Of a stretch of 35,399 nucleotides of DNA, positions 8,656-28,735 are shown one piece after another. This DNA is from an uncultured Bacteroidales bacterium (lineage in GTDB: Bacteria > Bacteroidota > Bacteroidia > Bacteroidales > Bacteroidaceae): positions 1 to 35,399 of the forward strand of contig CACZCX010000014.1 of NCBI GenBank assembly GCA_902779875.1, written 5' to 3'. The stretch's first letter is position 1. Every line of letters begins with the position of its first letter. A program made the translations under genes and the position numbers. The notes beneath the pieces were generated by a model that saw nothing but the letters and a program-made list of their open reading frames with translations, did not search any database and was not told the DNA's origin.

Positions 8656-9199
8656 ATCCCATCTTTATCAAACGTTCACGAATATTCTTCTTGGCCGCAT
8701 ACAGATTGCTCTTTATCTGATCTGCATCCAGGCCTGTAATCTCAATTATCTGAGCGGTATCAAGCCCCTCAAGCTGGCTGAGCGTAAACACCAGTTTCTG
8801 TTTTCCGCTAAGTTCATCGGCCAATACCTTTATGACCGATACCCACTCGCGGCTTTCCAGCTCCCGCTCAGGATCCGTATCATCGGCAACAGTCTCAAAG
8901 ACACGCTCGTCATTATCGGTCGGGCCGATGGGCCTTACCTTACGCAGACGGTCCAGACACAGACGCGACGCTATCGTGTACACCCAGGTATTGAATGCAA
9001 AACGTTCATCATAACTGTTCAGGTTCTGCCACACCTTTATAAATGTATCCTGCACCACGTCCTTGGCCTCCTCAACATCGGCAAGCATCTTGAGTGAGAG
9101 CGAATATACCATACCCTGGCAATTCTGCACCACTATGCGGAATGCGGATCTGTCACCCGCCTTGCATCTGTTTATGAGTTCAATGTCTGTCTGTTGCAT
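8642..9199 (-). CDS. ECF-type RNA polymerase sigma factor
   Basis: 185 aa. Region 2 is at about 10-90: AFRIVVQNCQGMVYSLSLKML, then DVEEAKDVVQDTFIKVWQNL and FNTWVYTIASRLCLDRLRK. An acidic linker (DNDERVFETVADDTDPERELESRE) leads to region 4 at about 125-180 (LSGKQKLVFTLSQLEGLDTAQI...LDADQIKSNLYAAKKNIRERL). The QDTFIKVW and FNTWVYTIA motifs are diagnostic. It heads a three-gene operon whose ends all overlap. The divergent TonB-dependent receptor starts 152 bp away, so control of that receptor by this sigma factor is possible but unproven. Confidence 0.94.
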   Translation of the reverse strand: MQQTDIELINRCKAGDRSAFRIVVQNCQGMVYSLSLKMLADVEEAKDVVQDTFIKVWQNLNSYDERFAFNTWVYTIASRLCLDRLRKVRPIGPTDNDERVFETVADDTDPERELESREWVSVIKVLADELSGKQKLVFTLSQLEGLDTAQIIEITGLDADQIKSNLYAAKKNIRERLIKMGYGKD

Positions 9200-9241: not shown

Positions 9242-9293
9242 GTTCATTGGGGCCACAACCCGAACTATATATTATAAAAAAGGCGTGTTACGA

Positions 9294-9325
9294 TTTCCGC
9301 AATTCGTGTCACTTTGCTATATTTG
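9294..9325 (+). promoter_or_regulatory. Promoter of the TonB-dependent receptor
   Basis: TTTC at 9294-9297 (3 of 4 to TTTG), 20 nt, then TATATTTG at 9318-9325. The ATG at 9352 is 26 nt further on. Confidence 0.6.
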
Positions 9326-9351
9326 CCGCTGCAACTAACCAACCCTGTTCA

Positions 9352-11304: not shown

Positions 11305-11311
11305 ATGCGGC

Positions 11312-11334
11312 AGTGTCAAATATTTGGACGTTTT
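11312..11334 (+). promoter_or_regulatory. Shared 23-bp regulatory motif, copy 1 (tolC-hlyD promoter)
   Basis: Reads AGTGT, ten variable bases (CAAATATTTG, a perfect palindrome), then GACGTTTT (the last variable base is shifted by one G). It matches 18 of 23 positions of the copy at 28692-28714. It ends 31 nt before the -33 box and 56 nt before the -7 box of the tolC promoter, the same distance to the -7 box as in the two other copies. Probably an activator site; the likely binder is the response regulator at 15137-15721. Confidence 0.8.
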
Positions 11335-11365
11335 AAGGCGCCAAAACACGATTCCGGATATATTG

Positions 11366-11398
11366 TTTGCAGTGACCGGCGGTATGGCGGTACTTTTG
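11366..11398 (+). promoter_or_regulatory. Promoter of tolC-hlyD
   Basis: A full Bacteroidetes promoter: TTTG at 11366-11369, 21 nt, TACTTTTG at 11391-11398. The tolC-family ATG is at 11420. Confidence 0.82.
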
Positions 11399-11419
11399 GA
11401 CCATCAACAAAAAGCCGAT

Positions 11420-12901
11420 ATGAAGAAGTGTCTGAAAATACCAATCTTCCTTGTATTGCTGGTCGTATCCACCGCCGGTTATGCCGGTGGTGGTGATACG
11501 ATTCACCTTACCATGTCCGATGTCATACGCCTGGCCCAGGAGTCATCACCCCAGGCCGTACAGGCGCGTAACACATTCGAGTCAGCATGGCTGAGTTACC
11601 GCAGCTTCAAAGCCGAGATGCTGCCTACTCTCTCACTCTCTTCTTCACCGTCGCTCAACCGTAGTACCAACTACGTAACCCTGCCGGACGGCTCAGAGCA
11701 CTATGCCCGTACCAACAGCATGCGCAACAACCTCTCGCTTGACCTTACACAGAACGTATGGTTCACAGGCGGAACCATCTCGCTGTCGGGCAGTCTGAGC
11801 CGTCTGGACCAGCTGGGTTCCAACCCGTCACACACCTACTTTGCCCAGCCGCTGCAACTCAGCTTCTCGCAGAGCCTTAACGGATACAACTCATACAGAT
11901 GGAGCCGTAAGACCGAGCCCATTGAGTATAGGATGGCCCGCAAACAGTATGCCGAGACCATGGAACTGGTGGCATCGCAGGCTGCATCGGTTTTCTTTGG
12001 TCTGGTATCGGCACAGACGGACCTGGAGATTGCCCGGCTCAACTATGCAGCCGTCGACACCCTCTACACCTATGGACTGGGCCGATACAACATCGGCACC
12101 ATAACGGAGAACGAACTGCTCCAGCTGGAGCTCAACCGACTGAACGGCGAGACCAGCATCATAAACTCACAGATGTCATATGATGATGCACAGGACCAGC
12201 TCCGCAACTTCCTGAACCTCTCATCCGACACCCGTATCGAGGTTATAACCGATGACAGCATACCTCATTTCAGCGTACCTCTGGAACAGGCCATGGAACT
12301 GGCCAGGAAGAACAGCCCCGATATAGAGAGCATGGAACTCAGCAGGCTCAACAGCGAGAGCAATCTGGCATATTACAAGTCACAGGCCGGATTCAAGGCA
12401 TCGGTCTATCTCAGCCTGGGACTGGCACAGACGGCCGACGAGCTGCCGGAGAGTTTCCGTAACCTCAATGACGAGCAGTCCGTCAGGGTGACGGTGAGCA
12501 TACCTATCCTGGATTGGGGACGTGCCAAAGGACGTGTAAGGATTGCACAGAACAACCTTCAGCTCACACAGCTGCGTATTGAACAGAACGAGGTGAACTT
12601 TGAGAAGACGGTGACACGTACCGTCGCCCAGTTCAACCTCCAGGAGAGACAGGTCGACATTGCACGCCGTGCCATGCAGACTGCCCAGCACCGTTATGAG
12701 GTGGCACGTCACCTCTATATGAACGGTAACTCCACCATACTTGACCTGAACACCGCCATAACATCCAAGGACTCCGCTTACAGAGGGTATGTATCGGCCC
12801 TGAGCCGTTACTGGCAGCTTTATTATACCATACGCAGCCTTACCGCGTATGACTTTATGAATAACGAACTCATAGAACAACAGATAGAATATGGATATTA
12901 A
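11420..12901 (+). CDS. TolC-family outer-membrane efflux protein
   Basis: 493 aa. The signal peptide is at about 1-22 (MKKCLKIPIFLVLLVVSTAGYA). The mature protein has two OEP repeats (about 30-230 and 255-480), each with long amphipathic helices and a beta hairpin: MSDVIRLAQESSPQAVQARNTFE starts the first and LEQAMELARKNSPDIESMELS the second, the familiar pseudo-duplicated TolC pattern. TolC trimers form the outer-membrane channel for tripartite exporters. Start ATG 11420 is used because the longer frame from 11258 runs through the regulatory motif and promoter and has no signal peptide. The gene overlaps the downstream adaptor gene by 11 bp. Context links it to the ABC permeases at 15.8-28.6 kb rather than to an RND pump, since none is present. 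Confidence 0.92.
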   Translation: MKKCLKIPIFLVLLVVSTAGYAGGGDTIHLTMSDVIRLAQESSPQAVQARNTFESAWLSYRSFKAEMLPTLSLSSSPSLNRSTNYVTLPDGSEHYARTNSMRNNLSLDLTQNVWFTGGTISLSGSLSRLDQLGSNPSHTYFAQPLQLSFSQSLNGYNSYRWSRKTEPIEYRMARKQYAETMELVASQAASVFFGLVSAQTDLEIARLNYAAVDTLYTYGLGRYNIGTITENELLQLELNRLNGETSIINSQMSYDDAQDQLRNFLNLSSDTRIEVITDDSIPHFSVPLEQAMELARKNSPDIESMELSRLNSESNLAYYKSQAGFKASVYLSLGLAQTADELPESFRNLNDEQSVRVTVSIPILDWGRAKGRVRIAQNNLQLTQLRIEQNEVNFEKTVTRTVAQFNLQERQVDIARRAMQTAQHRYEVARHLYMNGNSTILDLNTAITSKDSAYRGYVSALSRYWQLYYTIRSLTAYDFMNNELIEQQIEYGY

Positions 12902-14141
12902 GTTACCGCCCAAGAAATGGTATGTCAGATACCGTCTTCATATACTTGCCGGCATAATGGCCGTCGGACTTATAGCACTGCTCATCAAGGTATCGATAGG
13001 GCCCAGGGTCATAAGGATAAACGCAGACAGCGTGCAGATCGCGCAGGTGGTGGCCGGAGAGTTCTCGGAGTATGTGAACGCCGAGGGCACGCTGCAGCCC
13101 ATACAGACCGTCAAGGTCTATACACGCGAAGGAGGATTCGTGGAGAGCATGCCCTTGCAGGACGGTGCCCTGGTACGTAAAGGCGATACCATCATGATAC
13201 TCAGCGATCCGGAGCTGCTGCGTACCATCGAGACGGCCCGTGAGAACTGGCGCAAGCAGAACCGCAACTTCCGCACGAGCATGATTGAGATGGAACAGCG
13301 CCGTATCACCCTGGCTCAGAACATTCTCCAGACCAAATACGAGCTTAAGCGTCTTGAAAAAGAGCATAGCCTGGCCCTGGAAGAATACAGGATGGGTATC
13401 AGAAGCCGTGCTCAGCTTGAGGTGGCCGATGAGGAGTACAACTACAAGATGGAGACAGTGAGGCTTCAGCTGGAGAGCCGCCGTCAGGACTCCATTCTCA
13501 ACACCATCCGCATGGAGTCACTTGAGGATGAGCTTGAGGAGTCCCGCCGTCAGCTCGTAAACACCGAAGCCCGTCTGAGCGACCTTATAGTCACTGCCCC
13601 TGCCGACGGACAGCTCAGCGGACTCTCCCTGGAGCCCAGCCAGCACATCACGGCGGGCACATCGATCGCCGACATCAAACGCATGGACCAGTTCCGCATG
13701 CGTCTGAGCATCAACGAGTTCTACATAGACAAGATAACCGTAGGCCAGCCGGCCACCATCACATATGAGAAGAAGAACTTCCCCATGAAGATATCGGGCG
13801 TGGTACCTGAGATCAAAGGGGGCTCGTTCGATGTGTTCCTGGTATTCACCGACTCCATGCCCGACAACGCCCGCATAGGCAAGAGCTATCAGGCACGTAT
13901 AGAGTTGGGAGGACAGGCACAGTCAACGATTGTACAGAAGGGTAACTTCTATAATTATACTCACGGCAGTTGGGTGTTCAAGGTCAACGAGTCACACACC
14001 CATGCGGTACGTGTTCCTGTGAGCATAGGACGCCAGAACCCGCGACATTTCGAGATAATTGAAGGACTCGCTCCCGGTGATGAGATAATTATAACCGGGT
14101 ACGAACGGATTTCCGATGCCGATGAGGTGGTTCTTAACTGA
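12891..14141 (+). CDS. HlyD/MacA-family periplasmic adaptor (membrane fusion protein)
   Basis: 416 aa. An N-terminal membrane anchor is at about 15-33 (LHILAGIMAVGLIALLIKVS), then a first half lipoyl/beta-barrel segment (GTLQPIQTVKVYTREGGFVESM...LVRKGDTIMILSDPE, about 60-108). A long coiled-coil hairpin runs from about 109 to 232 and is rich in Glu/Arg/Leu. The second lipoyl half is VTAPADGQLSGLSLEPSQHITAGTSIADI, followed by beta-barrel and membrane-proximal domains ending in PGDEIIITGYE. It links an inner-membrane transporter to TolC. It overlaps tolC by 11 bp (translational coupling), and its stop overlaps the convergent histidine-kinase stop by 8 bp. Its partner is probably the MacB-like permease set next door. 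Confidence 0.92.
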   Translation: MDIKLPPKKWYVRYRLHILAGIMAVGLIALLIKVSIGPRVIRINADSVQIAQVVAGEFSEYVNAEGTLQPIQTVKVYTREGGFVESMPLQDGALVRKGDTIMILSDPELLRTIETARENWRKQNRNFRTSMIEMEQRRITLAQNILQTKYELKRLEKEHSLALEEYRMGIRSRAQLEVADEEYNYKMETVRLQLESRRQDSILNTIRMESLEDELEESRRQLVNTEARLSDLIVTAPADGQLSGLSLEPSQHITAGTSIADIKRMDQFRMRLSINEFYIDKITVGQPATITYEKKNFPMKISGVVPEIKGGSFDVFLVFTDSMPDNARIGKSYQARIELGGQAQSTIVQKGNFYNYTHGSWVFKVNESHTHAVRVPVSIGRQNPRHFEIIEGLAPGDEIIITGYERISDADEVVLN

Positions 14142-15150
14142 ACTGAAGCGTGAAAGTGGTGTAAGGATAATGTGACGAGCAGGTCAGGGTCCCTTCATGG
14201 AGCTGCATTATCTGCCTTGAGAGCGCCAGTCCTATACCACTTCCGCTACCCTTCTTCTTGGTCGAATAGAACGGCATGAATATATCCTCTATACGACTCT
14301 CCGGAATCTCCGGTCCGTTGTTTGTCACAGTGATGCAGGGTTTGCCTCCGGGGGCCGATGCCAACACCGTTATCTGGCCGTCCGGCACCTCATCGGTCGC
14401 CTGGATGGCATTACGGATTATGTTGATCAGGGCAAGCGGCAGCAGGCTTGCATCGGCGTGTATCACCACATCGCCCGCAGTCTCAAAATGGACACGGTCC
14501 GCGCCCGGCTCGGCGCTCAGGAGCGTTCCCAGCTGGCTGAATATGCGCGATGCGGGGATATCGGTCATGGAGGGCTGTGCCAGCACCGTGAGCTGACGGT
14601 AAGACTCCAGGAACGAGCATACGTTATGGGCCTGGGCGTTTATGATCCCTATGGCCTCACGGCGGTCCTCCTCAGTCTGGGCCTCGGGGTTCTCAATCAT
14701 GAAATCGGTCAGGGATACTATGGGAGTGACCGTGTTGCGCAACTCATGCGTCATGACACGCAGTATGCGGTCATAGTAGTTCTTGCGGGTCTCCAGTTCG
14801 TTCTGGTCCTTGCGGTACGAGAGCAGTATGCGGTTCATATCGGCCGATGCCTCACGCAGGAGTATGTCATCGGTCTCAGGGATATGCAGCATCAGGTCGT
14901 TGTTCTTTATGGCACGGGCCATCATCTCGGTCTGCGATATGGGATAACGCAGCAGCCTTATAAGACGGAAAACGGCGGTCAGGGTCAGAACACCCAGCAG
15001 CACGGCCAACGGGACGCCCGCCGTCCCCAGCCATGGCAGTGAGGGGTTACGGCTCTCCATGACAAGCCAGACAGCGGCAGAGGGAAGCAGAATCAGCATA
15101 ACCACTGCCACCGCCACGCGTGCGGTGTAATGATGGCTATACGATGCCAT
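14134..15150 (-). CDS. Sensor histidine kinase (two-component system)
   Basis: 338 aa. Two membrane helices at about 10-31 and 43-64 enclose only a short periplasmic loop (about 12 residues), so there is no large extracellular sensor and the signal is likely sensed in the membrane or cytoplasm. A HAMP-like linker follows. The H-box is RVMTHELRNTVTPIVSL with phospho-acceptor H135. The ATP-binding lobe has NIIRNAIQA (N247), NNGPEIP, FYSTKKKGSGSGIGLALSRQ. The layout resembles NtrY-type kinases. The start overlaps the response-regulator gene by 14 bp, so they are coupled. Its 3' end overlaps hlyD on the other strand by 8 bp. Confidence 0.94.
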   Translation of the reverse strand: MASYSHHYTARVAVAVVMLILLPSAAVWLVMESRNPSLPWLGTAGVPLAVLLGVLTLTAVFRLIRLLRYPISQTEMMARAIKNNDLMLHIPETDDILLREASADMNRILLSYRKDQNELETRKNYYDRILRVMTHELRNTVTPIVSLTDFMIENPEAQTEEDRREAIGIINAQAHNVCSFLESYRQLTVLAQPSMTDIPASRIFSQLGTLLSAEPGADRVHFETAGDVVIHADASLLPLALINIIRNAIQATDEVPDGQITVLASAPGGKPCITVTNNGPEIPESRIEDIFMPFYSTKKKGSGSGIGLALSRQIMQLHEGTLTCSSHYPYTTFTLQFS

Positions 15151-15721
15151 GATGCTTTATCTTGTTGTACAGTGTCTGACGGCTTATTCCTAGTTTCTCG
15201 GCGGCTGTAGTGAGGTTGTGGCCGCAGGTATCCAGCACTCTGATGATAGTCTGTCGCTCTATCTCCTCCAGGTTGAGCGGAAGCTCCTCACGCTCCTCCT
15301 CTTCGGGCTGCGGCTTGGCGTTACGCTCGTCACGCTTTATGATTGCCTCCTGCAGCTTGCGAATCAGGTCATTGTTGTCCCACGGCTTCTGGATAAAATC
15401 CAGGGCACCCTTCTTGAGCGATGTCACGGCCAGCCCCACGTCACCGAACGCAGTGATCATGACCACTGCCGGCGGGTTCTCCAGTCCGCTGCGGTTCATG
15501 ATACGGTCCAGCCAGAACAGGCCGTCCTGCCCGTCGAGCTTATCGGACCCGAAATTCATATCCAGGAGTACCGCATCCACATCGCCGGCACTTATGAGAG
15601 CCGGTATGAGCTGAGGGTCGCTCACAGCCACGACGGTGCGGAACACGCTCTTAAGCACCAGCCTGAGCGTACTCAGTACGGCCGTGTTGTCATCAATAAC
15701 AAGAATCTTGGCGTCAGTCAT
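15137..15721 (-). CDS. Response regulator, receiver plus Fis-type HTH (no AAA+ domain)
   Basis: 194 aa. The receiver domain (1-125) has acidic pocket D10-D11, phospho-acceptor D54 (VLLDMNFG), T90 and K112 (FIQKPW). A charged linker with an EEEREE run follows, then a Fis-family helix-turn-helix at 155-194 (RQTIIRVLDTCGHNLTTAAEKLGISRQTLYNKIKHHGIV, the NtrC C-terminal type). The central sigma-54 AAA+ module of NtrC is absent, so it should act with the housekeeping sigma factor, as do PrrA/RegA-like regulators. The start at 15721 is chosen because the longer frame to 15826 would translate the REP hairpin and promoter. It is the best candidate for binding the 23-bp motif upstream of the three export promoters. 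Confidence 0.94.
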   Translation of the reverse strand: MTDAKILVIDDNTAVLSTLRLVLKSVFRTVVAVSDPQLIPALISAGDVDAVLLDMNFGSDKLDGQDGLFWLDRIMNRSGLENPPAVVMITAFGDVGLAVTSLKKGALDFIQKPWDNNDLIRKLQEAIIKRDERNAKPQPEEEEREELPLNLEEIERQTIIRVLDTCGHNLTTAAEKLGISRQTLYNKIKHHGIV

Positions 15722-15725
15722 ACTA

Positions 15726-15757
15726 CAAATATAGCTCTTTTTGGAAAGGGGGCCAAA
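15726..15757 (-). promoter_or_regulatory. Promoter of the response regulator-kinase operon
   Basis: Minus strand: TTTG (complement of 15754-15757), 20 nt, TATATTTG (complement of 15726-15733), a full consensus. The -7 box ends 4 nt before the ATG at 15721, so the mRNA should be leaderless. The -33 TTTG lies inside the stem of the adjacent REP hairpin. Confidence 0.78.
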
Positions 15758-15823
15758 GGGGACGGTTCTATTTGGCTCCCTTCTGCAAAAAGGGGCCAAA
15801 CAGAACCGTCCCCTTTGGCCCCT
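15746..15823. repeat. REP/BIME-like pair of inverted hairpins
   Basis: Two hairpins in inverted orientation: 15746-15782 (12-bp stem with one G-T pair, loop around GGGACGGTTCTA) and 15791-15823 (10-bp perfect stem AGGGGCCAAA/TTTGGCCCCT, loop the complement of the same core). The two halves are also near-complementary to each other over about 34 bp, with 19 contiguous pairs, so the whole can fold as one long hairpin. It ends on the stop codon of the permease gene at 15823 and overlaps the -33 box of the response-regulator promoter. The related single hairpin at 35256-35290 shares the core. This resembles REP elements mobilised by REP-associated transposases; none is in the window. Confidence 0.85.
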
Positions 15824-18171
15824 CACTCGGTGCAGAGGTAATCGATCGGGTTGAGTTTCATCATTTTCCTTATGTTACCCCATACGGTAACGGTAATGAC
15901 TGACAGCATGAATATGACTCCCCCACCCACTGAGAGCCAGGCCGATACATCCTGAGCCGTAAGGTCTCCGTCGGACATCTGTATGACTGCGGAGTTGAAC
16001 AGTATGGAGACGGGCAGTGATACCGATATGCTTATAACCGCAAGCGCAATGTACAGACGGCCGAACATCATGGCCACGTCAAACCTGCCGGCACCGTTCA
16101 CCTTTCTGACGGCGACCTCCTTGCGGCGGGCGCGTATGCTCAAGAGCAGAGTGCTGTAAAGACTCATGGCGCAGATGACAAGACATATGCCCGACAATAT
16201 AAGCGAGCCTCCTCTCATGGCGTCAAGGATGGTGACCTCCGTCCCCACCTTGTCCCGCAGATTGAACACGCTGGGATCAACGGCCTCCGGACTGAGACGG
16301 CTCACCACATCCCTGGCATAAGACGAGAGAGCCTGATACTTACCCTTGCCGGGTGTAAGTATGTAATAATCATAGGTACGGTCATCGCCCGGCGTTATCA
16401 CCGCCTTGCTTATCTTTTCCGACCTGAGTCTTGAATAGGGTTTGGTACTGTATGTTCCCAGGACAGGCAGCAGGCGGCCATCGGAGGTACCGGTCATATC
16501 GGGCTCCCGTGCATCGGCCTGAGCGTAAAGGTCACTGTATCCCTCACTCAGAAGGACATAGCTCTCACCCGGCTCCGGCATCCTTTTCCAACTGATATGC
16601 ATGCCATAGAATCCGAACAGTGCCGTATCGGGCATGTGATAGTTCCGGATGGAATTAAGGCGCAGGTCATCAAGCAACCCGCCCACAGGGTCATAGGATT
16701 CATAGTTACGGTTCTCAAAGTTCTCACTGTAAGGTATCACCTTATCAGCAAGCGTGCACTCCAGCAGGTCCCTCTTCAATGCAGTCTTGTCATTTATCAT
16801 ATAAGACTGCACCAGGACGCATTGCCTGTAGTACCGGTCATTGTCAGGAATGTTATTCAGCCTTGACTCCCCCGCTACGAACTGCAGCAGTGAGAACGTG
16901 CCGCTTATGAATACCATACAGATCACGGTCTGCAGCACCAGCATGGTCTTGCGCATCACGCCACCGGTTCCACGGATTCGATCATTCAGCGCATAACCGC
17001 CCCTGACAGCACCTCTCACCTCAAGACCGATGACAGCGGCGCATACGGCAAGCATGGCCGCACCGGTCAGGAGTATGCTCCTTTCAATTCCTTTCCAGCT
17101 CCAGTTCCAGTCATTCAGGAATCCCGTCAGGCGGCTGTCGGCGAATCCTATAAGCAGTCTGGTCAGGATAAGTGAAAGCAGGGTGCAGAGCAGCACAGTA
17201 ACGGCATACTCCACCAAAAGCATCATGAACAGTTCCAAGGCCGATGCCCCGTTAACCCTGCGTAGCGCAAACTCGCGGCCACGCATGCGTAGCAGCTGCA
17301 CCTGCATCCTCAGAAAACTTATAAGAGCGGAGAGCAGTATCAGTGAGCCGCCAAGCCATATCACGCCACGTGTCATGTCCGATATGGAATTACCGCTCTC
17401 TTTCAGGGACTCGACCCTGACCGTAAAGCCGCTGGGCTTGAGTCGTGCATCGGCCTCAGCCTTGAGCTGATCCGGGGTGCATCCCTCCTTGAGTATGACC
17501 TCGCAGTACGGTATCCATGCGGCATTCCAGTCAAAGCCGTCATAGTCATAGAAACTGAGCAGCAGATGATGGTTCTCAGACTCCGTAAGGGGAACGTCCT
17601 CAAACACATCGGCCAGGACAAAGTCACGGGCCTCATAAAGGAACCAGAATGAGAGCGTTGAACCTACGGGATTACGGTCACCGAACACCTCGCGGGCCAT
17701 GGACTCGCTGAGCAGCACCTCGTCTTTATTCAGCACGGGAACCGTCTGACCGGTAATGGCGGAGCGCAACCTGCGGTAATTGGGATAGTCATTCTGTACA
17801 AGCACAAGATCCAGCGGTTTACGTCGGTACGAGCCGTCATCCAGTAGGAAATTCACGTAACCGCTCTCAAATGAGCCGTTCACAGGGAACAGTCTCTCCA
17901 CACAGGCCATACCTCCGTTTTCCAGCAGCAGATTCGCCTCTGTCTGGGTAAAATCGAATATCTCACCCTCCTGTCCGCTCTCCAGACGTATGGTGTAGCA
18001 TCGGTCCGCATAAGGCTCTGAATAGACCGCCGGCTTACGGATAAGGAACAGCAGGCACTGTATTACCGCAAGCACGGTCATGCCCACAGCAAGTGATACG
18101 ATGCTTATTATGGTCTGCGTCCTGTATTTGGCCAGATTGCGCAGTGCAATCTTGATATAATGTCTGAACAT
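15823..18171 (-). CDS. FtsX/MacB-type ABC transporter permease (permease 5 of the locus)
   Basis: 782 aa, membrane protein. It starts MFRHYIKIALRNLAKYRTQTIISIVSLAVGM, the entry helix typical of MacB-like permeases. A large periplasmic domain (about 45-265) follows, then a three-helix FtsX block (about 270-385), another helix (about 410-430), a second periplasmic domain, and a final three-helix block (about 660-770) with the motif RRKEVAVRKVNGA. It ends NPIDYLCTE. So it carries two MacB_PCD-FtsX units in one chain. It is the last gene of the ATPase operon, 31 nt after the gene upstream. It is the most divergent of the five permeases, lacking the usual VIKSE-type ending. MacB-like proteins use ATP to drive periplasmic conformational change; the substrate here is unknown. 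Confidence 0.9.
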   Translation of the reverse strand: MFRHYIKIALRNLAKYRTQTIISIVSLAVGMTVLAVIQCLLFLIRKPAVYSEPYADRCYTIRLESGQEGEIFDFTQTEANLLLENGGMACVERLFPVNGSFESGYVNFLLDDGSYRRKPLDLVLVQNDYPNYRRLRSAITGQTVPVLNKDEVLLSESMAREVFGDRNPVGSTLSFWFLYEARDFVLADVFEDVPLTESENHHLLLSFYDYDGFDWNAAWIPYCEVILKEGCTPDQLKAEADARLKPSGFTVRVESLKESGNSISDMTRGVIWLGGSLILLSALISFLRMQVQLLRMRGREFALRRVNGASALELFMMLLVEYAVTVLLCTLLSLILTRLLIGFADSRLTGFLNDWNWSWKGIERSILLTGAAMLAVCAAVIGLEVRGAVRGGYALNDRIRGTGGVMRKTMLVLQTVICMVFISGTFSLLQFVAGESRLNNIPDNDRYYRQCVLVQSYMINDKTALKRDLLECTLADKVIPYSENFENRNYESYDPVGGLLDDLRLNSIRNYHMPDTALFGFYGMHISWKRMPEPGESYVLLSEGYSDLYAQADAREPDMTGTSDGRLLPVLGTYSTKPYSRLRSEKISKAVITPGDDRTYDYYILTPGKGKYQALSSYARDVVSRLSPEAVDPSVFNLRDKVGTEVTILDAMRGGSLILSGICLVICAMSLYSTLLLSIRARRKEVAVRKVNGAGRFDVAMMFGRLYIALAVISISVSLPVSILFNSAVIQMSDGDLTAQDVSAWLSVGGGVIFMLSVITVTVWGNIRKMMKLNPIDYLCTE

Positions 18172-18202
18172 AGATTCTGTTACTCGCTATAAATCAATAT
18201 AA

Positions 18203-20554: not shown

Positions 20555-20563
20555 AGATTCCTT

Positions 20564-22864
20564 TTACTCGCTTTTAATCACACCGGCAGGATTGGTGCGC
20601 ATGATGGCGCGGATCCTGCTGAACACGGAAAGTGTCACGATCAGTGCCATTACAAACAACGTTACAGGTGCAATCCAGAGGTATGTAAGTTCCTGACTCT
20701 TACCTATCAGCGCCCATGATGCAAGGACTCCTATCGGGAAGGCCACAGCCAGGATTATGCAGTATGGCTTGATGAACAGAGCCATTATATTCCGGGCTTT
20801 GGCACCGTTGATCTTGCGCAGAGCCACCTCCTTGCGGCGTTTGTTTGTCTCGGCCGATATGGACGATGTCACGCTCAGGATTACCAGCAATATGCAGACA
20901 ATTCCTCCCACCTGGAATCCCAATGCCGCGAACCTGTATTCATCATCGTTATATTTGGGTATGGATATTACCTTGATATCCTCCATCGATGACGGATTGA
21001 CCGTATTCCAGGCATTACGCAGAAGGGCCTCTGCCTGAGACTTTGATACCCCCTTGCGAAATCTCACAAAAAAGTTCGTATTGTAGTCCGATATGGGATT
21101 ATACCAGAACAGTCCGCCTACATCATCACCGCCGATAACATACGGATTACCCAACATATATTCTTCATACACTCCGCATATATGGACTGGGGTAACAGTG
21201 TTGTAGCTCGTTTCCGATATGCTGTTCAGATCCACACCATCTCTCAGATACCTTTCATAAGTACGCCTGTCAATCAGGCACCCGCTTGACGGATGCGAAG
21301 GATCCAGCCATTCAATAGGGATATTGAAGAACTCGAAATAACGGATATCATTACCTTTTCCGAACAGCCATTCAGTCCTGTCCTGAACAGTGTATCTGGT
21401 TGCATGTGCCCCGTTCCAGTCTCTCTCGGACGATACCATATCCTCAACCTCCGGCAACTGACTGACCATCCTGCAGAACTCGCGCTGGTTATCCGTATAC
21501 GAATCGCCCTCCTCGGTCTCCACAAAATAGGTCCTGCGGCTTTCTGACCTGGATAACGGGTTATATGGCCTTGGTGCTGTAAATACTATATCTATGACCG
21601 ATGCCAATGCCAGTACGGCTACCGTCGCCTCTATTCCTATGATAATGTATTTGAGTGCCCTGCTTTCACGTTTGAAAACATCAATCCTCTTTTGGAGGGC
21701 CTTGTTCTGTCCGTATACAGCCACGCGGCATACGCCCATACTTATCACTGCGACCGACGCTAAAGCCCATGTGTTCAGGCGGAACAGGTCTGCCATATGG
21801 AAATACTGCTCTCCCATATATACAGACTGGTTTATCCAGGTGCAGACAAGGAACGTTATATACAGGGCTAAGGCATACGATATGAGAAGTACTATAAGGA
21901 CCTCGGTTATCAGCATAAGCGCAAGACTGCCCTGCCCGGCACCCAGGCTATATCGGATGATATTGGCCCGGCTGCGCTGTTTGAGCACCATAACGATATG
22001 CTTGAGGTAATTCGTAACAGCTATAATGAGAACCAGGATGCTCAATATGCTCAGCAGCGCTTTCCCCAGTTTCTCATTTGGTTTCTCCTCAAAGCGGGCC
22101 AGTTGCAGTATCTCTTTGTTTCCTTCATCATCATCTACTACGGTAACGCTCAGCTTATGGTTCGTATCATCTATGTCGGCCCCCTCCTTAAGTATGACAT
22201 CGGCATCGTAAAAGGGAATTTCCAGGACTTTCCAGTCATCAAGGCTCAAAAAGACGTCCAGGCCAAGACTGCGGCACCATTTGTCGTCGCGTACAACATT
22301 CACTATCTGATATTCCCGTCCCACCCTGTACGTCTCGGTCCTGACAAGACATTGGCTTATATCCTTGTCATAACCCATGCGTTTAAGGAGGGATTCCGAT
22401 ACCACGATCTCATTCTCATTACGGGGTACTCTGTCACCATACAGTAAAGAGAGATTCCTGAATCTGAAATAATCGCCGTCAACATAAACTCCCTGTACCG
22501 GTCCCTTTCCGTAAACCTTGACAGAATCGGCAAAAGAAAGATGTACGGTCATTCTGCCGGATACCGACACAGATTCTATTTCCGGTATATCCAACAGAGT
22601 CTTGTAATCATGGTATGGCAACTGCTGGCGGTATATCCGTTCCGGCTGTTCTTCCTGATTAAGGTTTCCCGGCGATGTCATGTAGACAAAACAGCTTCGT
22701 CTATGGCCGGGCAGTCTGTTCTTGAAGAAGTCATCATAGTTGATGCCGTAGAACAGCACGGAGAACATAGCCGCGCCAATGGCAAGGCAGCAAACGCTGA
22801 GCAGGCTGTATACCCAGTAGCTGCGGATATTCCGCCAGGCGGTTTTAAGATAATGGTATAGCAT
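20564..22864 (-). CDS. FtsX/MacB-type ABC transporter permease (permease 3 of the locus)
   Basis: 766 aa. It starts [40 protein letters not shown]. The first periplasmic domain has LLYGDRVPRNENEIVVSESL and RDDKWCRSLGLDVFLSLDD; the central part has the PRPYNPLSRSE segment; and the C-terminal block has RRKEVALRKINGAKARNIMALF, ending NPAGVIKSE. It is paralogous to the downstream permease (18203-20554). Its ATG overlaps the ATPase stop by one base (TAATG), so it is the direct translational partner of the ATPase. The double MacB_PCD-FtsX layout suggests that one polypeptide could provide both permease halves of a MacB-type dimer, which is inference. Confidence 0.91.
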   Translation of the reverse strand: MLYHYLKTAWRNIRSYWVYSLLSVCCLAIGAAMFSVLFYGINYDDFFKNRLPGHRRSCFVYMTSPGNLNQEEQPERIYRQQLPYHDYKTLLDIPEIESVSVSGRMTVHLSFADSVKVYGKGPVQGVYVDGDYFRFRNLSLLYGDRVPRNENEIVVSESLLKRMGYDKDISQCLVRTETYRVGREYQIVNVVRDDKWCRSLGLDVFLSLDDWKVLEIPFYDADVILKEGADIDDTNHKLSVTVVDDDEGNKEILQLARFEEKPNEKLGKALLSILSILVLIIAVTNYLKHIVMVLKQRSRANIIRYSLGAGQGSLALMLITEVLIVLLISYALALYITFLVCTWINQSVYMGEQYFHMADLFRLNTWALASVAVISMGVCRVAVYGQNKALQKRIDVFKRESRALKYIIIGIEATVAVLALASVIDIVFTAPRPYNPLSRSESRRTYFVETEEGDSYTDNQREFCRMVSQLPEVEDMVSSERDWNGAHATRYTVQDRTEWLFGKGNDIRYFEFFNIPIEWLDPSHPSSGCLIDRRTYERYLRDGVDLNSISETSYNTVTPVHICGVYEEYMLGNPYVIGGDDVGGLFWYNPISDYNTNFFVRFRKGVSKSQAEALLRNAWNTVNPSSMEDIKVISIPKYNDDEYRFAALGFQVGGIVCILLVILSVTSSISAETNKRRKEVALRKINGAKARNIMALFIKPYCIILAVAFPIGVLASWALIGKSQELTYLWIAPVTLFVMALIVTLSVFSRIRAIMRTNPAGVIKSE

Positions 22865-23538
22865 TACAGCGGGAGTTCCTTTACTATGCTTCCGTCAAAC
22901 AGGTTGATTATGCGGTTGGCGTATGATGCATCGTGACGGCTGTGGGTTACCATAACGATGGTCGTACCCTGCTGGTTGAGTTCCTTGAGCAGGTTCATGA
23001 CCTCCTGACCGTTCACTGAATCCAGGTTACCGGTGGGCTCATCGGCCAGGATCAGTTTGGGGTTCGCTATCACGGCACGGGCTATAGCCACACGCTGCTG
23101 CTGACCGCCGCTGAGCTGTCCGGGGAAATGTTTCTCGCGGTGAGATATGTTCATGCGCTCCATCACCTCCTCGGCACGACGGCGACGCTCCTTGGCCGGT
23201 ACGCCCATATAGAGCAGCGGCAGCTCAATGTTCTCGCGCACGTTCAGCTCATCAATAAGGTTAAAGCTCTGGAACACGAAACCTATCACACCCTTACGGA
23301 GGTCTGTGCGATGGTTCTCATCAAGTGTGGCAACCTCTGTACCCTGCAGCTTGTAACTGCCTTTGGTGGGGTTGTCCAGCAAACCAAGGATATTGAGCAG
23401 AGTTGACTTTCCGCAACCTGAGGGGCCCATAATGGCTACGAACTCACCGTCGGCCACGTTGAACGAAACATCATTCAGTGCCCATGTCTCAACCTCTTCC
23501 GTACGGAAGATCTTCTGTAAATTGTTAACTTCAATCAT
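22864..23538 (-). CDS. ABC transporter ATP-binding protein, LolD/MacB family
   Basis: 224 aa, the only ATPase of the locus. Walker A is GPSGCGKST at 38-46, the Q-loop is [17 protein letters not shown], the signature is LSGGQQQR at 142-149, Walker B is LILADEP at 162-168, and the switch histidine is H199 ([14 protein letters not shown]). This is the LolD/FtsE/MacB class, which energises FtsX-type permeases without carrying substrate through the membrane. It starts an operon with three permeases, reading straight into the first by a TAATG overlap. It probably also serves the two permeases of the operon upstream, since these have no ATPase of their own. A consensus promoter and the shared 23-bp motif precede it. 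I assign no gene symbol because lolD, macB and ftsE cannot be told apart safely. Confidence 0.95.
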
Positions 23539-23571
23539 AACTATATAAAGGTTTAATTACTTTTTCCGATT

Positions 23572-23603
23572 CAAACTTATGCTCTTGAATCAACTAATTC
23601 AAA
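23572..23603 (-). promoter_or_regulatory. Promoter of the ATPase-permease operon
   Basis: Minus strand: TTTG (complement of 23600-23603), 20 nt, TAAGTTTG (complement of 23572-23579), then 33 nt to the ATG at 23538. A TATTTTTG at 23600-23607 also fits the -7 consensus but lacks a -33 box. The distance to the motif copy favours the TAAGTTTG reading. Confidence 0.75.
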
Positions 23604-23635
23604 AATAAAAGCGATAAACGTATGAAAGGAACTCA

Positions 23636-23658
23636 AAAACGTCTACTTTTTTTACACT
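23636..23658 (-). promoter_or_regulatory. Shared 23-bp regulatory motif, copy 2 (ATPase operon promoter)
   Basis: Minus strand AGTGT, an A-tract, GTA, GACGTTTT. It matches copy 3 at 22 of 23 positions (24 of 25 with flanks). It ends 32 nt before the -33 and 56 nt before the -7 box. It lies between the stop of the permease at 23668 and the ATPase promoter, implying that the ATPase operon has its own regulated promoter. Confidence 0.8.
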
Positions 23659-23667
23659 CCGACCGTT

Positions 23668-26184
23668 TCACTCACTCTTGATCACATCGGCAGGGTTCTC
23701 ACGAGCGGTCCTGAGCACACGGTGTCCTACGGTCAGGCAGATGACTAACGCCATTGATGCGAATATGACTGCATATATCCACCAGCTGATTGTAGCCTGG
23801 AAACGGAACTGCTGCTGCCACACCTTTACTACGGGATATCCCGTCATGAATGCCGGTATGGAAGATACCAGGAACAGTATTCCGTAATTGCGTACAAATA
23901 TGGAGAGTATGTCGCTCACCCTCGCCCCATGAACCTTGCGCACGGCAATCTCACGTCTCTTCTCCTGGCATGAGAGCGCCAATATGGAGTATATACCGGC
24001 AAGTGATATTATCAGGCAGATTATGCCAAGCGTCTCGATCAATGCGGCAAGATGACGGTCATTGGTGAGTGTCTCATAGAAATAGTCCTCCGAAAACTTA
24101 AGCTCATATTCCAATCCCGTCCCCTTCATTATCTCTGCAATCCTTACTCCCAGTTCCTTACTTGTACCGTGCTTGTATGTCAGGGTTATCAGAGCCTCGG
24201 ACCATCCCAATGACACGCCGATGATCTTAGAATTACCGGGTGCACAGAGTATATAACTTTCCGGTTCCATATTGAACTCTGTCAGATACAGGTCACTTAC
24301 TATGGCCAATATCCTGTATGTGTAAGTCACATCCCTTAATTCACCATCCAGAATAGTCGGTACGCCATTGTCCCATACGAACTGTGACGGTGTACGGTAC
24401 TGCCTTCGGATGGTTATAACAGGCTCATCGGCTATATCACCGAGCCCCAGCTCGCGCTGCAGGTTCCGGGTGATCACTATCTCGTCATCCCTGAGCGGCC
24501 TGTCCGGGATTGCTCCGTCCAGGACATCAAGGGAGAGGAATTTCATAAGGGTGGTATCAATAATGGCCAGGATATTTGTCCTTACGTTATCATCACCGTT
24601 TATCCATGCGCCATCCTGCTTCCATACTGTATGGACTGCCTGGTATATGTTATTCACATCACCTATACCCGTGTAAACATCATCAACACAAGGAATACCC
24701 TTTAGTTTTGATGTCAGCCCATATAAACCGTCAATCCGGTCCATATAATCTGCACCATTCTCATAACCCATTGGCATAAAGGGGCCTTCTTCGGCAAAGG
24801 CGTAACCTTGAAAACCGTCATACATGTTATTCGGATTTAATACGGTCAGTACTGCCGTATCATTCACCCTTATGCCCCAGTTGTTGTTCCTAAGGAACCG
24901 GAACTGATGCAGGAATGCAAAGACCACATACGCGAACAGCACGCTTACAAATATCTGGATTCCCATGCTTATGCCACGGAACGTCTTACCCGTCTTGCTT
25001 ACCAGCGTGCTCTGCATGGTCCTGTGTCTAACCATGCCTACCGATATGATGCTAACTGCCATAGAAACGGCAAAGGCTATCGCTATCACAGCCAGACTTC
25101 CCCACATCACATATCCGCCGCTCATACCTATATCCGCCATTCTGCGGAAAGGCTCCTTAAGGATCAGGACCAAAATGAATCCCAGGACCGATGCCACCCC
25201 AAGAACAATACCTGACTCAACCGCCATCATACCTATGACAGACCTCGGAGTCGCTCCATGGACAATCCTGAGCACCATCTCATGCTCCCTGTTCCTTACC
25301 CTGTTCAGGTTAAAGAGCAGGTAATTGACCAGGGCGCACAGCGTGAGCAGAAGGCTGGCCCAGGCAAACATTCCGGCATGTTCATATCCTATATACATCT
25401 CACGGGCGACAACCATCTTATGAGCCTGGCTGATCGGGAGCAGTCTGTATTTGAATTTGTCGTGATCGAATTGTGTATCCCTGTTCCTGGATGCGGTGTA
25501 CAAATCAGAGAGCCTATCCGGATCCGTTCCGATGTGTATCTTGAAAAAGACGTTGGGGCATCTGTCCAAGTCATCATAACTAACCCACTTGGACAAAACG
25601 CCCCACACGGCCAATACGCCCGGTTTAATCTCAGGAAAGATGTGTAATGAGATCATATCGAACTTAAGATATGACGGCCCGCGGAACGGAGATATTACAG
25701 CACATACGGTCTTTCCGAACAGTTCCTGTCCTATAGGGTCCGTACCGGGGAACCTCTCTTGGGCGAACGATTGTGATATGGCCACGTAATTGCTGTCACG
25801 CATAAAGCTGCGGTTGCCACTGGCCAGCCCCAGGTCAAAGTATTCAAAGAACATGGAATCGGCTATCAGTTCCTCTACATCGCCATGATAGCGGTAGTTC
25901 CATTTGGTATATGACTCCACCTCACTGAACTCAAGCAACGGGTCCAACGTTTCCGGATCGAACTGGGGTATATAAGGCACAGGATTATAGGGAGATTCCG
26001 CCGATAATGTATATATCCGGTCCGAATCCTTATGGAACGTATCGAATGACTCCTCAAAACGGATCCACAAAGCGGAAAAGCTCAGACAAACAAGGCCCGC
26101 AGCAAGGCCCAACACGCAGACTGTGTTCTGCAAGGCATACTTTCGTATGTTGCGCAGCGCGTTTATAAGATAATGGACTAGCAT
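23668..26184 (-). CDS. FtsX/MacB-type ABC transporter permease (permease 2 of the locus)
   Basis: 838 aa, the longest of the five. It starts MLVHYLINALRNIRKYALQNTVCVLGLAAGLVCLSFSALW and continues WIRFEESFDTFHKDSDRIYTLSAE, a segment shared with the permease at 26210-28603 and seen in many Bacteroidetes MacB-like permeases. A three-helix block is at about 275-390, a second helix at 410-425, a second periplasmic domain, and the C-terminal block has RREIAVRKVHGARVSDILSIF, ending NPADVIKSE. It follows the upstream permease by 25 nt, in an operon without an ATPase gene. It is more like 26210-28603 than the three permeases downstream. Confidence 0.91.
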   Translation of the reverse strand: MLVHYLINALRNIRKYALQNTVCVLGLAAGLVCLSFSALWIRFEESFDTFHKDSDRIYTLSAESPYNPVPYIPQFDPETLDPLLEFSEVESYTKWNYRYHGDVEELIADSMFFEYFDLGLASGNRSFMRDSNYVAISQSFAQERFPGTDPIGQELFGKTVCAVISPFRGPSYLKFDMISLHIFPEIKPGVLAVWGVLSKWVSYDDLDRCPNVFFKIHIGTDPDRLSDLYTASRNRDTQFDHDKFKYRLLPISQAHKMVVAREMYIGYEHAGMFAWASLLLTLCALVNYLLFNLNRVRNREHEMVLRIVHGATPRSVIGMMAVESGIVLGVASVLGFILVLILKEPFRRMADIGMSGGYVMWGSLAVIAIAFAVSMAVSIISVGMVRHRTMQSTLVSKTGKTFRGISMGIQIFVSVLFAYVVFAFLHQFRFLRNNNWGIRVNDTAVLTVLNPNNMYDGFQGYAFAEEGPFMPMGYENGADYMDRIDGLYGLTSKLKGIPCVDDVYTGIGDVNNIYQAVHTVWKQDGAWINGDDNVRTNILAIIDTTLMKFLSLDVLDGAIPDRPLRDDEIVITRNLQRELGLGDIADEPVITIRRQYRTPSQFVWDNGVPTILDGELRDVTYTYRILAIVSDLYLTEFNMEPESYILCAPGNSKIIGVSLGWSEALITLTYKHGTSKELGVRIAEIMKGTGLEYELKFSEDYFYETLTNDRHLAALIETLGIICLIISLAGIYSILALSCQEKRREIAVRKVHGARVSDILSIFVRNYGILFLVSSIPAFMTGYPVVKVWQQQFRFQATISWWIYAVIFASMALVICLTVGHRVLRTARENPADVIKSE

Positions 26185-26209
26185 AACAGGATTATTGAGT
26201 TATTAAGGA

Positions 26210-28603
26210 CTACTCGCTCTTGATCACATCGATGGGATTCTGTGATGATGCCCTACGGATGTTGTTGAATATAATCAGGCCTATGAACAGTATCATCCCG
26301 GCCAGAACCAGCAGATAAGTCCATACCCCTATCGGAGCCTGACGGATATAAGCAGACTGCCAGCCGTGCATGATGAGTGTGCCTACGGGGAATGCCACCA
26401 CTGCTGCAGCTACGATTACCGGCACATAGTCCTTGAGGAACAGACGCAGTACATCCGAACGTTTGGCTCCGTTTATCTTACGCACCGCAATCTCACGGCG
26501 GCGGCGCTCACATGAGAGTGACACTATGCTGAACACACCGCTTACTGCTATGATTATGCAGACTATGGTAATTATGAGCAGGAACTTACCCAATGCCAGC
26601 TCGGATTTGATGTAGTTGTTTATATAATCATCCTCCATGTTCCTGATCACATGATATATTCCCGGATGGACATTCTCAAAGACCTGGGTAATCTTATTCC
26701 TGAGCGAGCTCCAGTCAGTACCCTCCCTGAACCTGAACATAAACAGATTGGGCCTGTTCACTCCCGATATGCTGTTCTCGCGCTCATACTCGTAAACCAA
26801 CGGTATGGTGGCAGCCTTGGGACTTGTATAGCAGACATCCCTTATTACACCTTTCACGACATAAGGCTGGTAATAGCTGAATATGGTCTTGCCTACTATC
26901 TGTTCCGGACCTCCCAGCAGGTTGGCAAGCGTCTCGCTTATGACAACCGCATTCTCCTGCTCGTTCTCCCAGCTGAACAGCTCGCCGGCTATGGGCTGGA
27001 TCTCTATCATATCAAGATATTCGCGATTCGCCTTAATGTAAATGACACGGATATCATTATCAGCGATTAAGCTCTCGAACGTAGTATCCGTGGTAACAGC
27101 CGAACTGGTGTGGTACTGGAAATATGAGTCATAGCCATACACAACCTTATCTATCTCAGGCAGCTGTTTAAGCTGTTCCCTTACCGCATCCACCTCGGTC
27201 TCATTCAGTCCGTATTGGTATATGGAACCAATATTGTGCTTGACATATCCCATATCCCTGGAGCCAATCAGGTAGTTGATCTGTCTCTGCATCACGACCG
27301 TGCAGAATATGGCGCACAGGCTTATGGCCAGCTGGAATCCTATGCTCATCTTATAGCCTGATATGGCACTGCCGCGGCTCATGGAACGGCCAAGATAAAG
27401 CGAGAGCTGTCTTTTGCTTACGGCCGATGATATGACGGATGCTATCAGGACCGATATGACACCTATCACCACAGCATACAGTACATATCCGCGTATAAAA
27501 AAGCTGAAAGGTTCGTCGATTGTACTGAATCGTGTAAAGTACGGCAGTGAGAGTATGCATATTACAGCACCGGTTACGATTGCCGCAATCAGCACGACCG
27601 ATATCTCCACGACAAACAGGCCAAGTATCTGAATAGGCGTGGCACCGTTTGCATACCGCAGTGATATCTCACGCATCCTTATGCCGATTCGGGTTACCAG
27701 CATGGTAAAATAGTTTGTCAGAGAGCAGACTATCATGACCAATCCCAGAATCAGCAGTACTATGATGTATCGGATGTTAAGGTTCATGACGGAAAGCGCC
27801 TCCTCCTGGCGGAGTTTGGTCATGGGTACCAGTTTATAGCTGTGGGCATCCACCATCGTATATGTCACCACCTGTCCGTCCTCATCGGTAAAGCTCTGGG
27901 GTGTAAACAGTGTGTCATTGGCAATCATACCGGCCAGATAATCAGCGTTGTCCTTGCGTACCCGTACAAAGTCCAGTGATGAAAGGACATACCTGGTGTC
28001 ATATCTGTTCAAATCATACCCCCTAAGGAAATCATAATATATCGATGTAGGTTCCATAGGGTCGGCTATGACGGAAATGACTATCATCTGTCCCTGGTCC
28101 GTATAGAGAGTCTTGCCTATGGCATCGCCGCCAAAAAGCATGTCGGCGTTCTTTTGGGTTATGGCAGCTTCAGAATAGGAAAGGTTAAGGATACTCTCCC
28201 CTTCCAGCACCTTGACATCAAAAAAGTTCTGGAAACGGTCGTCAATGACAACTCCTTTCAGGGTGTATTCCGGTTTGCCGTCACGCATTATCTTATAGTC
28301 ATTCGGTATCTCGCATCGGGTCCACTCCTCTATCTGGGGATATTTTCCGGCCAGATAATCACCCTCGGGATATGATGTATAGGGGCGGAATTCATTATCG
28401 GCGGCATTGGAGTTCCTGCCCATTACCAGATAGATATCATCGGCATCACGGTGGAACCTGTCAAAACTGTGCTCATACCTTATCCAGATATACGTAAGTG
28501 AGCAGAATACCATACCAAGTGCAACGGAGAGGACACCTATTGTTGACTGCAGTCTGTACTTAGCCAGATTGCGGAGTGCCATTTTAAGATTGTGACTGAA
28601 CAT
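26210..28603 (-). CDS. FtsX/MacB-type ABC transporter permease (permease 1 of the locus)
   Basis: 797 aa from ATG 28603. It starts MFSHNLKMALRNLAKYRLQSTIGVLSVALGMVFCSLTYIW, then IRYEHSFDRFHRDADDIYLVMGRN. Three helices lie at about 285-405, a central helix at about 420-445, and the C-terminal block has RRREIAVRKINGAKRSDVLRLF, ending NPIDVIKSE. The open frame extends 23 residues further upstream, but that part crosses the predicted -33/-7 promoter, so the internal ATG, which aligns with the N-termini of the other four permeases, is preferred. It heads the two-permease operon and has a full consensus promoter plus the shared motif. Confidence 0.91.
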   Translation of the reverse strand: MFSHNLKMALRNLAKYRLQSTIGVLSVALGMVFCSLTYIWIRYEHSFDRFHRDADDIYLVMGRNSNAADNEFRPYTSYPEGDYLAGKYPQIEEWTRCEIPNDYKIMRDGKPEYTLKGVVIDDRFQNFFDVKVLEGESILNLSYSEAAITQKNADMLFGGDAIGKTLYTDQGQMIVISVIADPMEPTSIYYDFLRGYDLNRYDTRYVLSSLDFVRVRKDNADYLAGMIANDTLFTPQSFTDEDGQVVTYTMVDAHSYKLVPMTKLRQEEALSVMNLNIRYIIVLLILGLVMIVCSLTNYFTMLVTRIGIRMREISLRYANGATPIQILGLFVVEISVVLIAAIVTGAVICILSLPYFTRFSTIDEPFSFFIRGYVLYAVVIGVISVLIASVISSAVSKRQLSLYLGRSMSRGSAISGYKMSIGFQLAISLCAIFCTVVMQRQINYLIGSRDMGYVKHNIGSIYQYGLNETEVDAVREQLKQLPEIDKVVYGYDSYFQYHTSSAVTTDTTFESLIADNDIRVIYIKANREYLDMIEIQPIAGELFSWENEQENAVVISETLANLLGGPEQIVGKTIFSYYQPYVVKGVIRDVCYTSPKAATIPLVYEYERENSISGVNRPNLFMFRFREGTDWSSLRNKITQVFENVHPGIYHVIRNMEDDYINNYIKSELALGKFLLIITIVCIIIAVSGVFSIVSLSCERRRREIAVRKINGAKRSDVLRLFLKDYVPVIVAAAVVAFPVGTLIMHGWQSAYIRQAPIGVWTYLLVLAGMILFIGLIIFNNIRRASSQNPIDVIKSE

Positions 28604-28627
28604 CTGTAACGGTTTTTGTTTATGCTC

Positions 28628-28660
28628 CAAAAATACCCTGCCTACTCTCCACATGCCAAA
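28628..28660 (-). promoter_or_regulatory. Promoter of the two-permease operon
   Basis: Minus strand: TTTG (complement of 28657-28660), 21 nt, TATTTTTG (complement of 28628-28635), then 24 nt to the ATG at 28603. Full consensus. Confidence 0.82.
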
Positions 28661-28661
28661 G

Positions 28662-28690
28662 AAAAAGGGCAAAATCAGTGATTCCGCCCT
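28662..28690 (-). terminator. Intrinsic terminator of the valS-helicase operon
   Basis: Minus strand: AGGGCGGAAT, loop CACTG, ATTTTGCCCT, then T's; a 10-bp stem with two G-T pairs. It fills almost exactly the 31-nt gap between the 23-bp motif and the -33 box of the permease promoter. Weaker than the other terminators. Confidence 0.6.
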
Positions 28691-28691
28691 A

Positions 28692-28714
28692 AAAACGTCT
28701 ATTTTTTTTACACT
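28692..28714 (-). promoter_or_regulatory. Shared 23-bp regulatory motif, copy 3 (two-permease operon promoter)
   Basis: Minus strand AGTGT, an A-tract, TA, GACGTTTT. It ends 31 nt before the -33 TTTG and 56 nt before the -7 box, identical to the tolC promoter. It lies 21 nt past the helicase stop codon and is separated from its promoter by the helicase-operon terminator. Confidence 0.82.
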
Positions 28715-28735
28715 CAGCCGGCTTCCGCCCTGTTC

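Follow-up and report, generated by a model that had tools for sequence, protein, structure and literature searches.

We analyzed a 35,399-nucleotide (nt) stretch of DNA from an uncultured Bacteroidales bacterium (contig CACZCX010000014.1 of assembly GCA_902779875.1; the whole stretch is referred to here as the window), which carries a gene cluster for a predicted export system, a short motif upstream of three promoters of that cluster, and the genes of a response regulator (RR) and a sensor histidine kinase. An earlier note on this DNA had read the motif as the mark of a local regulon, with one activator bound near -80 and the RR as the natural candidate. The relevant features, in order of position, are listed below.

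11311..11333, plus strand: predicted operator 1, in the register of the palindrome described below (15 of 18 positions), upstream of tolC-hlyD; copy of the earlier note at 11312-11334
11366..11398, plus strand: promoter 1, with TTTG (-33) at 11366-11369 and TACTTTTG (-7) at 11391-11398
11420..12901, plus strand: tolC-like outer-membrane efflux protein (OEP)
12891..14141, plus strand: HlyD-like adaptor; best NCBIfam model DarC, below cut-off
14134..15150, minus strand: sensor histidine kinase, 338 amino acids (aa), HATPase_c
15137..15721, minus strand: RR, 194 aa, receiver plus Fis-type HTH_8 and no AAA+ domain; proposed binder of the operators
15823..22864, minus strand: three FtsX/MacB-type permeases (20564-22864, 18203-20554 and 15823-18171)
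22864..23538, minus strand: ATP-binding cassette (ABC) ATPase of the MacB/LolD type, 224 aa; best NCBIfam model DarD, 294.7 bits against a cut-off of 375
23572..23603, minus strand: promoter 2, with TTTG at 23603-23600 and TAAGTTTG at 23579-23572
23637..23659, minus strand: predicted operator 2 (13 of 18 positions), upstream of the ATPase; copy of the earlier note at 23636-23658
23668..28603, minus strand: two FtsX/MacB-type permeases (26210-28603, with the start moved to ATG 28603, and 23668-26184)
28628..28660, minus strand: promoter 3, with TTTG at 28660-28657 and TATTTTTG at 28635-28628
28693..28715, minus strand: predicted operator 3 (13 of 18 positions), upstream of the two permeases; copy of the earlier note at 28692-28714

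The cluster includes one ATPase gene and five permease genes, and the RR and kinase genes follow the ATPase and three permeases of copy 2 on the same strand. For the permease after copy 3, a start at ATG 28603 appears more likely than the listed TTG at 28672. The exporter proteins match the Pfam families ABC_tran, FtsX, MacB_PCD, HlyD_3, and OEP, and their best NCBIfam models are DarD and DarC (darobactin exporter) and the ADOP permeases. Although the same TolC, adaptor, ATPase, and FtsX-type permease parts make up MacAB-TolC, darobactin DarBCD, and ADOP, all scores of the window exporter fell below the curated cut-offs (DarD, 294.7/375; DarC, 137.7/450; ADOP, 154.5/622.3), and none of these proteins reached the equivalog cut-offs for DarD, DarC, or MacB.

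All three motif copies matched AGTGT-N10-GACGTTTT without mismatch at the coordinates given by the earlier note, with copies 2 and 3 agreeing at 22 of 23 positions and copies 1 and 3 at 18 of 23 (counted by eye). The distance of 56 nt from the end of the motif to a TAnnTTTG box was found in every case (31+4+21, 32+4+20, and 31+4+21 nt, with boxes at 11391-11398 on the plus strand and at 23579-23572 and 28635-28628 on the minus strand) and was also recovered by a fixed-N56 pattern, so that the presence of the motif with this spacing in the window is as good as certain. The motif is real, but it is not the plain 23-bp sequence that had been described. The arms of a matrix made from 56 unique sites, found jointly with the promoter and with near-copies included, form the palindrome AAGTGTC-N9-GACACTT (AAGTGTCnAAnnnTTnGACACTT), and the window copies are a form of it that has decayed in the promoter-proximal arm (GACGTTTT). 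For the spacer, we compared 72 promoters selected for a distance of 55 to 57 nt (13 at 55, 50 at 56, and 9 at 57; spacer identity no higher than 75%). Ahead of a CTTGG-like -33 box they have a T-tract, which is preceded by a conserved ACGWTTTT-like element near +14 to +21 and an A-tract near +8 to +11. The ACGWTTTT-like element, 14 to 21 nt past the operator (window 11348-11355, for example), resembles a further half-site two turns downstream.

The assembly to which the window belongs (2,136,222 bases in 74 contigs, 86.5% complete) contains three exact copies of the bare motif, all of them in the window, plus one copy with a single mismatch on contig C17. At up to one mismatch, the bare motif gave 4 matches and its reversed control 2, and for this reason the bare motif alone is weak evidence. 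When palindrome and promoter were searched together, there were 4 matches in this genome versus 0 in the controls. The fourth site lies on contig C17 (8741-8828, minus strand), has TAnnTTTG exactly 56 nt downstream, and is located 88 nt before the gene for an 811-aa FtsX-type permease, which means that the regulon is not only local. The claim that equal spacing goes beyond chance held for palindrome and promoter taken together (4 versus 0 here and 123 versus 1 in the genus scan below), but not for the bare motif.

We then considered 27 named loci with RR orthologues (L035-L061, mostly from rumen, horse, and gut Bacteroidales) together with the window, listing palindromes that matched in at least 13 of 18 positions and the genes that follow them. 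By our own count, a palindrome with an in-phase box stood directly upstream of 13 of the 15 tolC genes with an intact start (L059 had a palindrome only and L052 none) and of 12 of the 20 ATPase genes; among the other eight, one (L053) had a palindrome only and seven had a same-strand cluster gene just upstream. Some of the lower-scoring palindromes listed were inside genes or before nothing recognised. Of 11 regions fetched around remote sites, 9 had the site before a gene for an FtsX-type protein, a TolC, or an ATPase (exceptions, L218 and L224), and in relatives the RR genes themselves were among the targets (e.g., L044, L045, L046, and L047). The earlier note had expected motif and spacing to be conserved before orthologous operons, as these counts bear out, and not to recur at a similar density at random, which was indeed not seen once the promoter was included (36 matches versus 0 in the family and 123 versus 1 in the genus). 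Judged by the genes behind the sites, the predicted regulon is an export system made up of a TolC, an adaptor, a single ATPase, and a number of FtsX-type permeases, with one or more of these permeases encoded outside the window.

Three further observations were made. At L218 (genome G137), three sites with 56-nt spacing (6251, 8394, and 14729) stand before large, apparently exported proteins (621 to 722 aa, signal-like starts); by eye, two of these proteins have thioredoxin-like CxxC motifs. The regulon can therefore apparently reach beyond transporters. In L057 (10001-10578) and on contig C21 of genome G168 (44418-44992), the RR gene is split over two frames, through either mutation or assembly error, and the nearby operators are intact. 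Finally, the ATPase (22864-23538) is 97 to 99% identical in many genomes of the genus, while the adjoining permeases are often only 20 to 80% identical; by this comparison, the cluster is seemingly one conserved motor with changing permeases.

Read from the ATG at 15721, the RR has a receiver (5.9e-16) and a Fis-type HTH_8 domain (1.1e-13) and, in a Pfam scan that included 35 extra N-terminal residues of the longer reading frame, no match to the AAA+ domain Sigma54_activat (PF00158), which was found in the three full-length relatives scanned. The Fis-type helix-turn-helix (HTH) is a fold that binds inverted repeats. The 137 RRs collected comprised 73 full-length ones, which carry a Walker A motif, and 64 short ones. 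The full-length RRs sit in clusters with kinase, ATPase, HlyD-like adaptor, and FtsX genes (compared with the window, the ATPase is 62 to 77% identical where a close one was found and the adaptor about 30%), and the palindrome occurs upstream of full-length RR genes in other lineages. A quick, unrooted tree, built for 105 RRs from 183 columns of the receiver and HTH, required one change of the short/full label, with a support of 53 for the deciding branch. A single loss of the AAA+ domain is allowed rather than shown by this tree; the direction of the change is read from the full-length form being more widely spread. A direct-repeat (LytTR-like) operator was also considered and dropped, since the RR does not belong to that family.

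Spacing was evaluated in an unselected scan of 98 intergenic palindromes from 66 short-RR loci for TAnnTTTG at 40 to 70 nt. Boxes were found at 43 (2), 44 (1), 45 (11), 55 (9), 56 (54), 57 (5), 58 (1), 66 (2), 67 (5), 68 (7), and 70 (1) nt, with peaks at 45, 56, and 67-68 nt that differ by about 11 nt, that is, one helical turn. After removing identical contexts, we assigned clades by locus following the quick RR tree (L057, L181, and L214 were off that tree, and L214 was scored at a threshold lowered to 12 so as to include the fourth site of the window's own genome). The 70 palindromes of the window clade had 67 boxes at 55 to 57 nt and 4 at other distances, and the 30 palindromes of the sister clade had 12 at 44-45 nt, 13 at 66 to 68 nt, 2 at 56-57 nt, and 8 at others; several loci of this second clade have two tandem palindromes 23 nt apart, which make up part of the 66- to 68-nt class. 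In 14 palindromes, there was an in-phase box on both sides. With the -7 box set at -12 to -5, as it is placed in the portion of PMC9723704 consulted, the centers of the sites fall near -81 in the window clade, in agreement with the earlier proposal of a site near -80, and near -70 and -92 in the other classes. A dimer on one face of the DNA that touches the polymerase would be the simplest mechanism.

To what extent sites and RR go together was examined across genomes. Within the genus (37 genomes), the palindrome followed at a fixed N56 by TAnnTTTG, with up to three mismatches, gave 123 matches in 25 genomes versus 1 in the reversed control, at least seven palindromes being counted in both directions. 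At a threshold of E <= 1e-30, the RR was present in 21 of these genomes; sites occurred in 21/21 genomes with the RR and in 4/16 without it (Fisher p = 9.8e-7, kinship ignored), the remaining 12 having neither. The four exceptions are G024, G153, G161, and G164. The RR of G024 probably lies in an assembly gap, because its kinase is present but cut off at a contig end; in G161 and G164, the HlyD-TolC genes, which in several loci adjoin the kinase gene, are close to a contig start, which fits a gap without proving it, and the sites of G153 are on contigs of 3.7 to 10.8 kb. In the family, a stricter pattern with a spacing of 53 to 58 nt gave 36 matches in 12 of 151 genomes versus 0 in the controls, and 11 of these 12 have a short RR, while G024 has no RR match of that quality. 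The RR thus kept its place as candidate binder, the sites tracking it in the genus, with the correction that it is an NtrC-like RR without its AAA+ domain.

Starting from what is seen directly (sequence, spacing, conservation, co-occurrence, and domain make-up), we consider it probable that the motif is an operator for the cluster-encoded RR, which would activate the export promoters through the main sigma factor. We judge it highly likely that the RR binds the palindrome, and activation through main sigma is likely as well. We infer that the neighbouring kinase would phosphorylate the RR, which may then bind the palindrome as a dimer on one helix face. With its center near -81, or in the sister clade near -70 or -92, the dimer would work like a class I activator and bring main-sigma RNA polymerase to the -33/-7 promoters.

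Several results weigh against this interpretation. The RR gene of the window has no operator of its own, 13 of the 66 short-RR loci lacked an intergenic palindrome at the threshold used, and 10/70 palindromes of the first clade and 7/30 of the second had no TAnnTTTG at 20 to 85 nt. The site-bearing genomes without RR G153, G161, and G164 are only probably incomplete. Of the 41 family genomes with a short RR among the matches listed, 30 did not show the 53- to 58-nt pattern, which speaks against a simple rule beyond the genus; many of them use other spacings, and some of those fetched have no palindrome at all.

It is improbable that another DNA-binding protein binds the palindrome and that the RR is only a neighbour. 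The window does encode a NikR-like protein (6871-7272) and two extracytoplasmic function (ECF)-like sigma factors (2339-2902 and 8642-9199), and four genomes of the genus have sites and no RR. However, the RR and the kinase are the regulators found beside the sites (the loci were annotated with the window proteins, and no search for a third conserved regulator was made), RR and sites co-occur in every RR-bearing genome of the genus, and the palindrome is also present upstream of full-length RR genes in other lineages. More doubtful still is a bound RR whose main effect is repression, or which has both effects, e.g., through DNA loops that join sites. The several sites per cluster would suit such a role, as would the tandem sites of the sister clade with their 23-nt distance, but centers near -70 to -92 in one-turn steps fit polymerase contact, and the sites leave the -33/-7 boxes uncovered. 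Chance, or the composition of AT-rich intergenic DNA, deserves hardly any credence: although the bare motif at up to three mismatches was not enriched in the window (9 found versus 7.09 expected from shuffles), we count the control comparisons that include the promoter (36 versus 0 and 123 versus 1) as refuting it.

Activation by the short RR through main sigma can be set beside the promoters of its full-length relatives. Intergenic palindromes were present in 60 of 73 full-length loci (91 palindromes) and in 53 of 66 short-RR loci (98 palindromes). The sequence TTGGCAY was found within 160 nt of a palindrome in 42/60 full-length versus 4/53 short-RR loci (Fisher 2.9e-12), in the former mostly at 58, 79-82, and 103-104 nt, whereas TAnnTTTG at 44-46, 55-57, or 66-68 nt was found in 1/60 versus 45/53 loci (4.8e-22); the loci are related, so these counts are not independent and the p-values overstate their independence, which also tells against our interpretation. 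Strict sigma54 matches within 200 nt accompanied 19 of 91 full-length palindromes versus none of the 98 at short-RR loci, and some elements are near the sigma54 consensus, such as TTGGCACGATATTTGCA at L232.

We lean toward the view that the export regulon switched polymerase and kept its operator, passing from sigma54 promoters to main sigma with the loss of the AAA+ domain in a Bacteroidales lineage. In the full-length state, an NtrC-type RR with AAA+ would drive sigma54-type promoters from AAGTGTC-N9-GACACTT; in the short state, the same kind of site would act at helically phased distances from main-sigma promoters, and one palindrome may at times serve two divergent promoters alike. The enrichment of COG0577 FtsX-type permeases among predicted sigma54 targets in Bacteroidia, reported in the part of PMC12316311 consulted, agrees with the full-length state. 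We rejected the idea that the short RR arose through loss of rpoN, as 149 of 151 family genomes, including that of the window, have sigma54.

The sigma54 reading of the full-length loci has its limits. Only 6 of the 20 full-length loci in the family of the window have TTGGCAY at the aligned distances, though these are near-consensus. For L062-L114, a set rich in Flavobacteriaceae, the elements were selected for an exact -24 part, and their -12 part matches less well, frequently reading TAGC or TAGT. By eye, many RR genes of this set also show TAGTTTT some 25 nt past the palindrome, and because of these boxes the full-length RR may work near a main-sigma promoter as well. Besides, 72 of the 73 full-length RRs (L062-L114 and L225-L244) read G(A/S)FTDA and none GxFTGA. 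The -12 parts, the TAGTTTT boxes, and the FTDA reading speak for an alternative in which the full-length relatives work without sigma54, TTGGCAY being something else and both RR forms acting at main-sigma promoters with no switch, and the absence of RpoN from the pull-down of a GAFTDA protein, described in the excerpt of PMC10714721, points the same way. We regard that alternative as rather unlikely, given the preferred distances of TTGGCAY in 42/60 versus 4/53 loci, the near-consensus elements, the COG0577 enrichment, and the listing of GAFTDA among variants that keep activity in the passages seen of PMC4641369. As these last two papers differ, GxFTDA was not adopted as proof of sigma54-independent full-length RRs.

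The proposed switch of polymerase and the mechanism of the short RR can be compared with known systems. The full-length NtrC-type sigma54 activators share with the window RR the receiver, the Fis-type HTH, the kind of cluster, and a nearby palindrome, but the AAA+ domain and the -24/-12 targets are theirs, a strict element being absent within 200 nt of all short-RR palindromes. A receiver plus a Fis-type HTH without AAA+ is the architecture of the ActR/PrrA/RegA redox response regulators, which the window RR matches, while operator and genes differ; membership was rejected (NCBIfam NF033791, ActR_PrrA, 54 bits against a cut-off of 250). In class I activation, CRP acts from about -62, -72, -82, and -93, positions to which the site centers near -70, -81, and -92 come close. 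The peaks at 45, 56, and 67-68 nt likewise represent one-turn operator steps upstream of a core promoter, but the protein family is different, the promoter is of the Bacteroidetes -33/-7 type, and the polymerase contact would be a presumed one. NtrC of Rhodobacter capsulatus and Caulobacter has likewise moved to sigma70 promoters, where, going by the sections of PMC10274813 consulted, it keeps the AAA+ domain and has lost the GAFTGA loop, whereas the window RR lacks the domain altogether.

Short Fis-type RRs, NtrC-type regulators at sigma70 promoters, and class I phasing were thus already known separately. A published description of their combination was not found in the literature searched, in the portions available, which likewise held little on how activators work at the -33/-7 promoters of this phylum. 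The analysis provides a computed regulon (operator, spacing rule, regulator, and targets) for an uncharacterised export system of rumen and gut Bacteroidales, and the short and full-length RRs, with their shared operator, form a natural experiment for asking how an enhancer-binding protein of the sigma54 type may become a main-sigma activator.

No known RNA element was detected at gathering threshold between 9000 and 30000 of the window. The NikR-like gene encodes a putative nickel regulator, and both ECF-like genes have sigma-70 region 2 and 4 domains, the second of them adjoining a TonB-dependent receptor gene (9247-11244). In the gap that separates the RR gene from the last permease gene (15749-15822), there is an inverted pair of GGGGCCAAAGGGGACGGTTC, a sequence with 71 matches in the same genome at up to two mismatches versus 0 in the control. 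Many of these are pairs about 54 nt apart, and on this pattern the pairs are a REPIN-like dispersed element.

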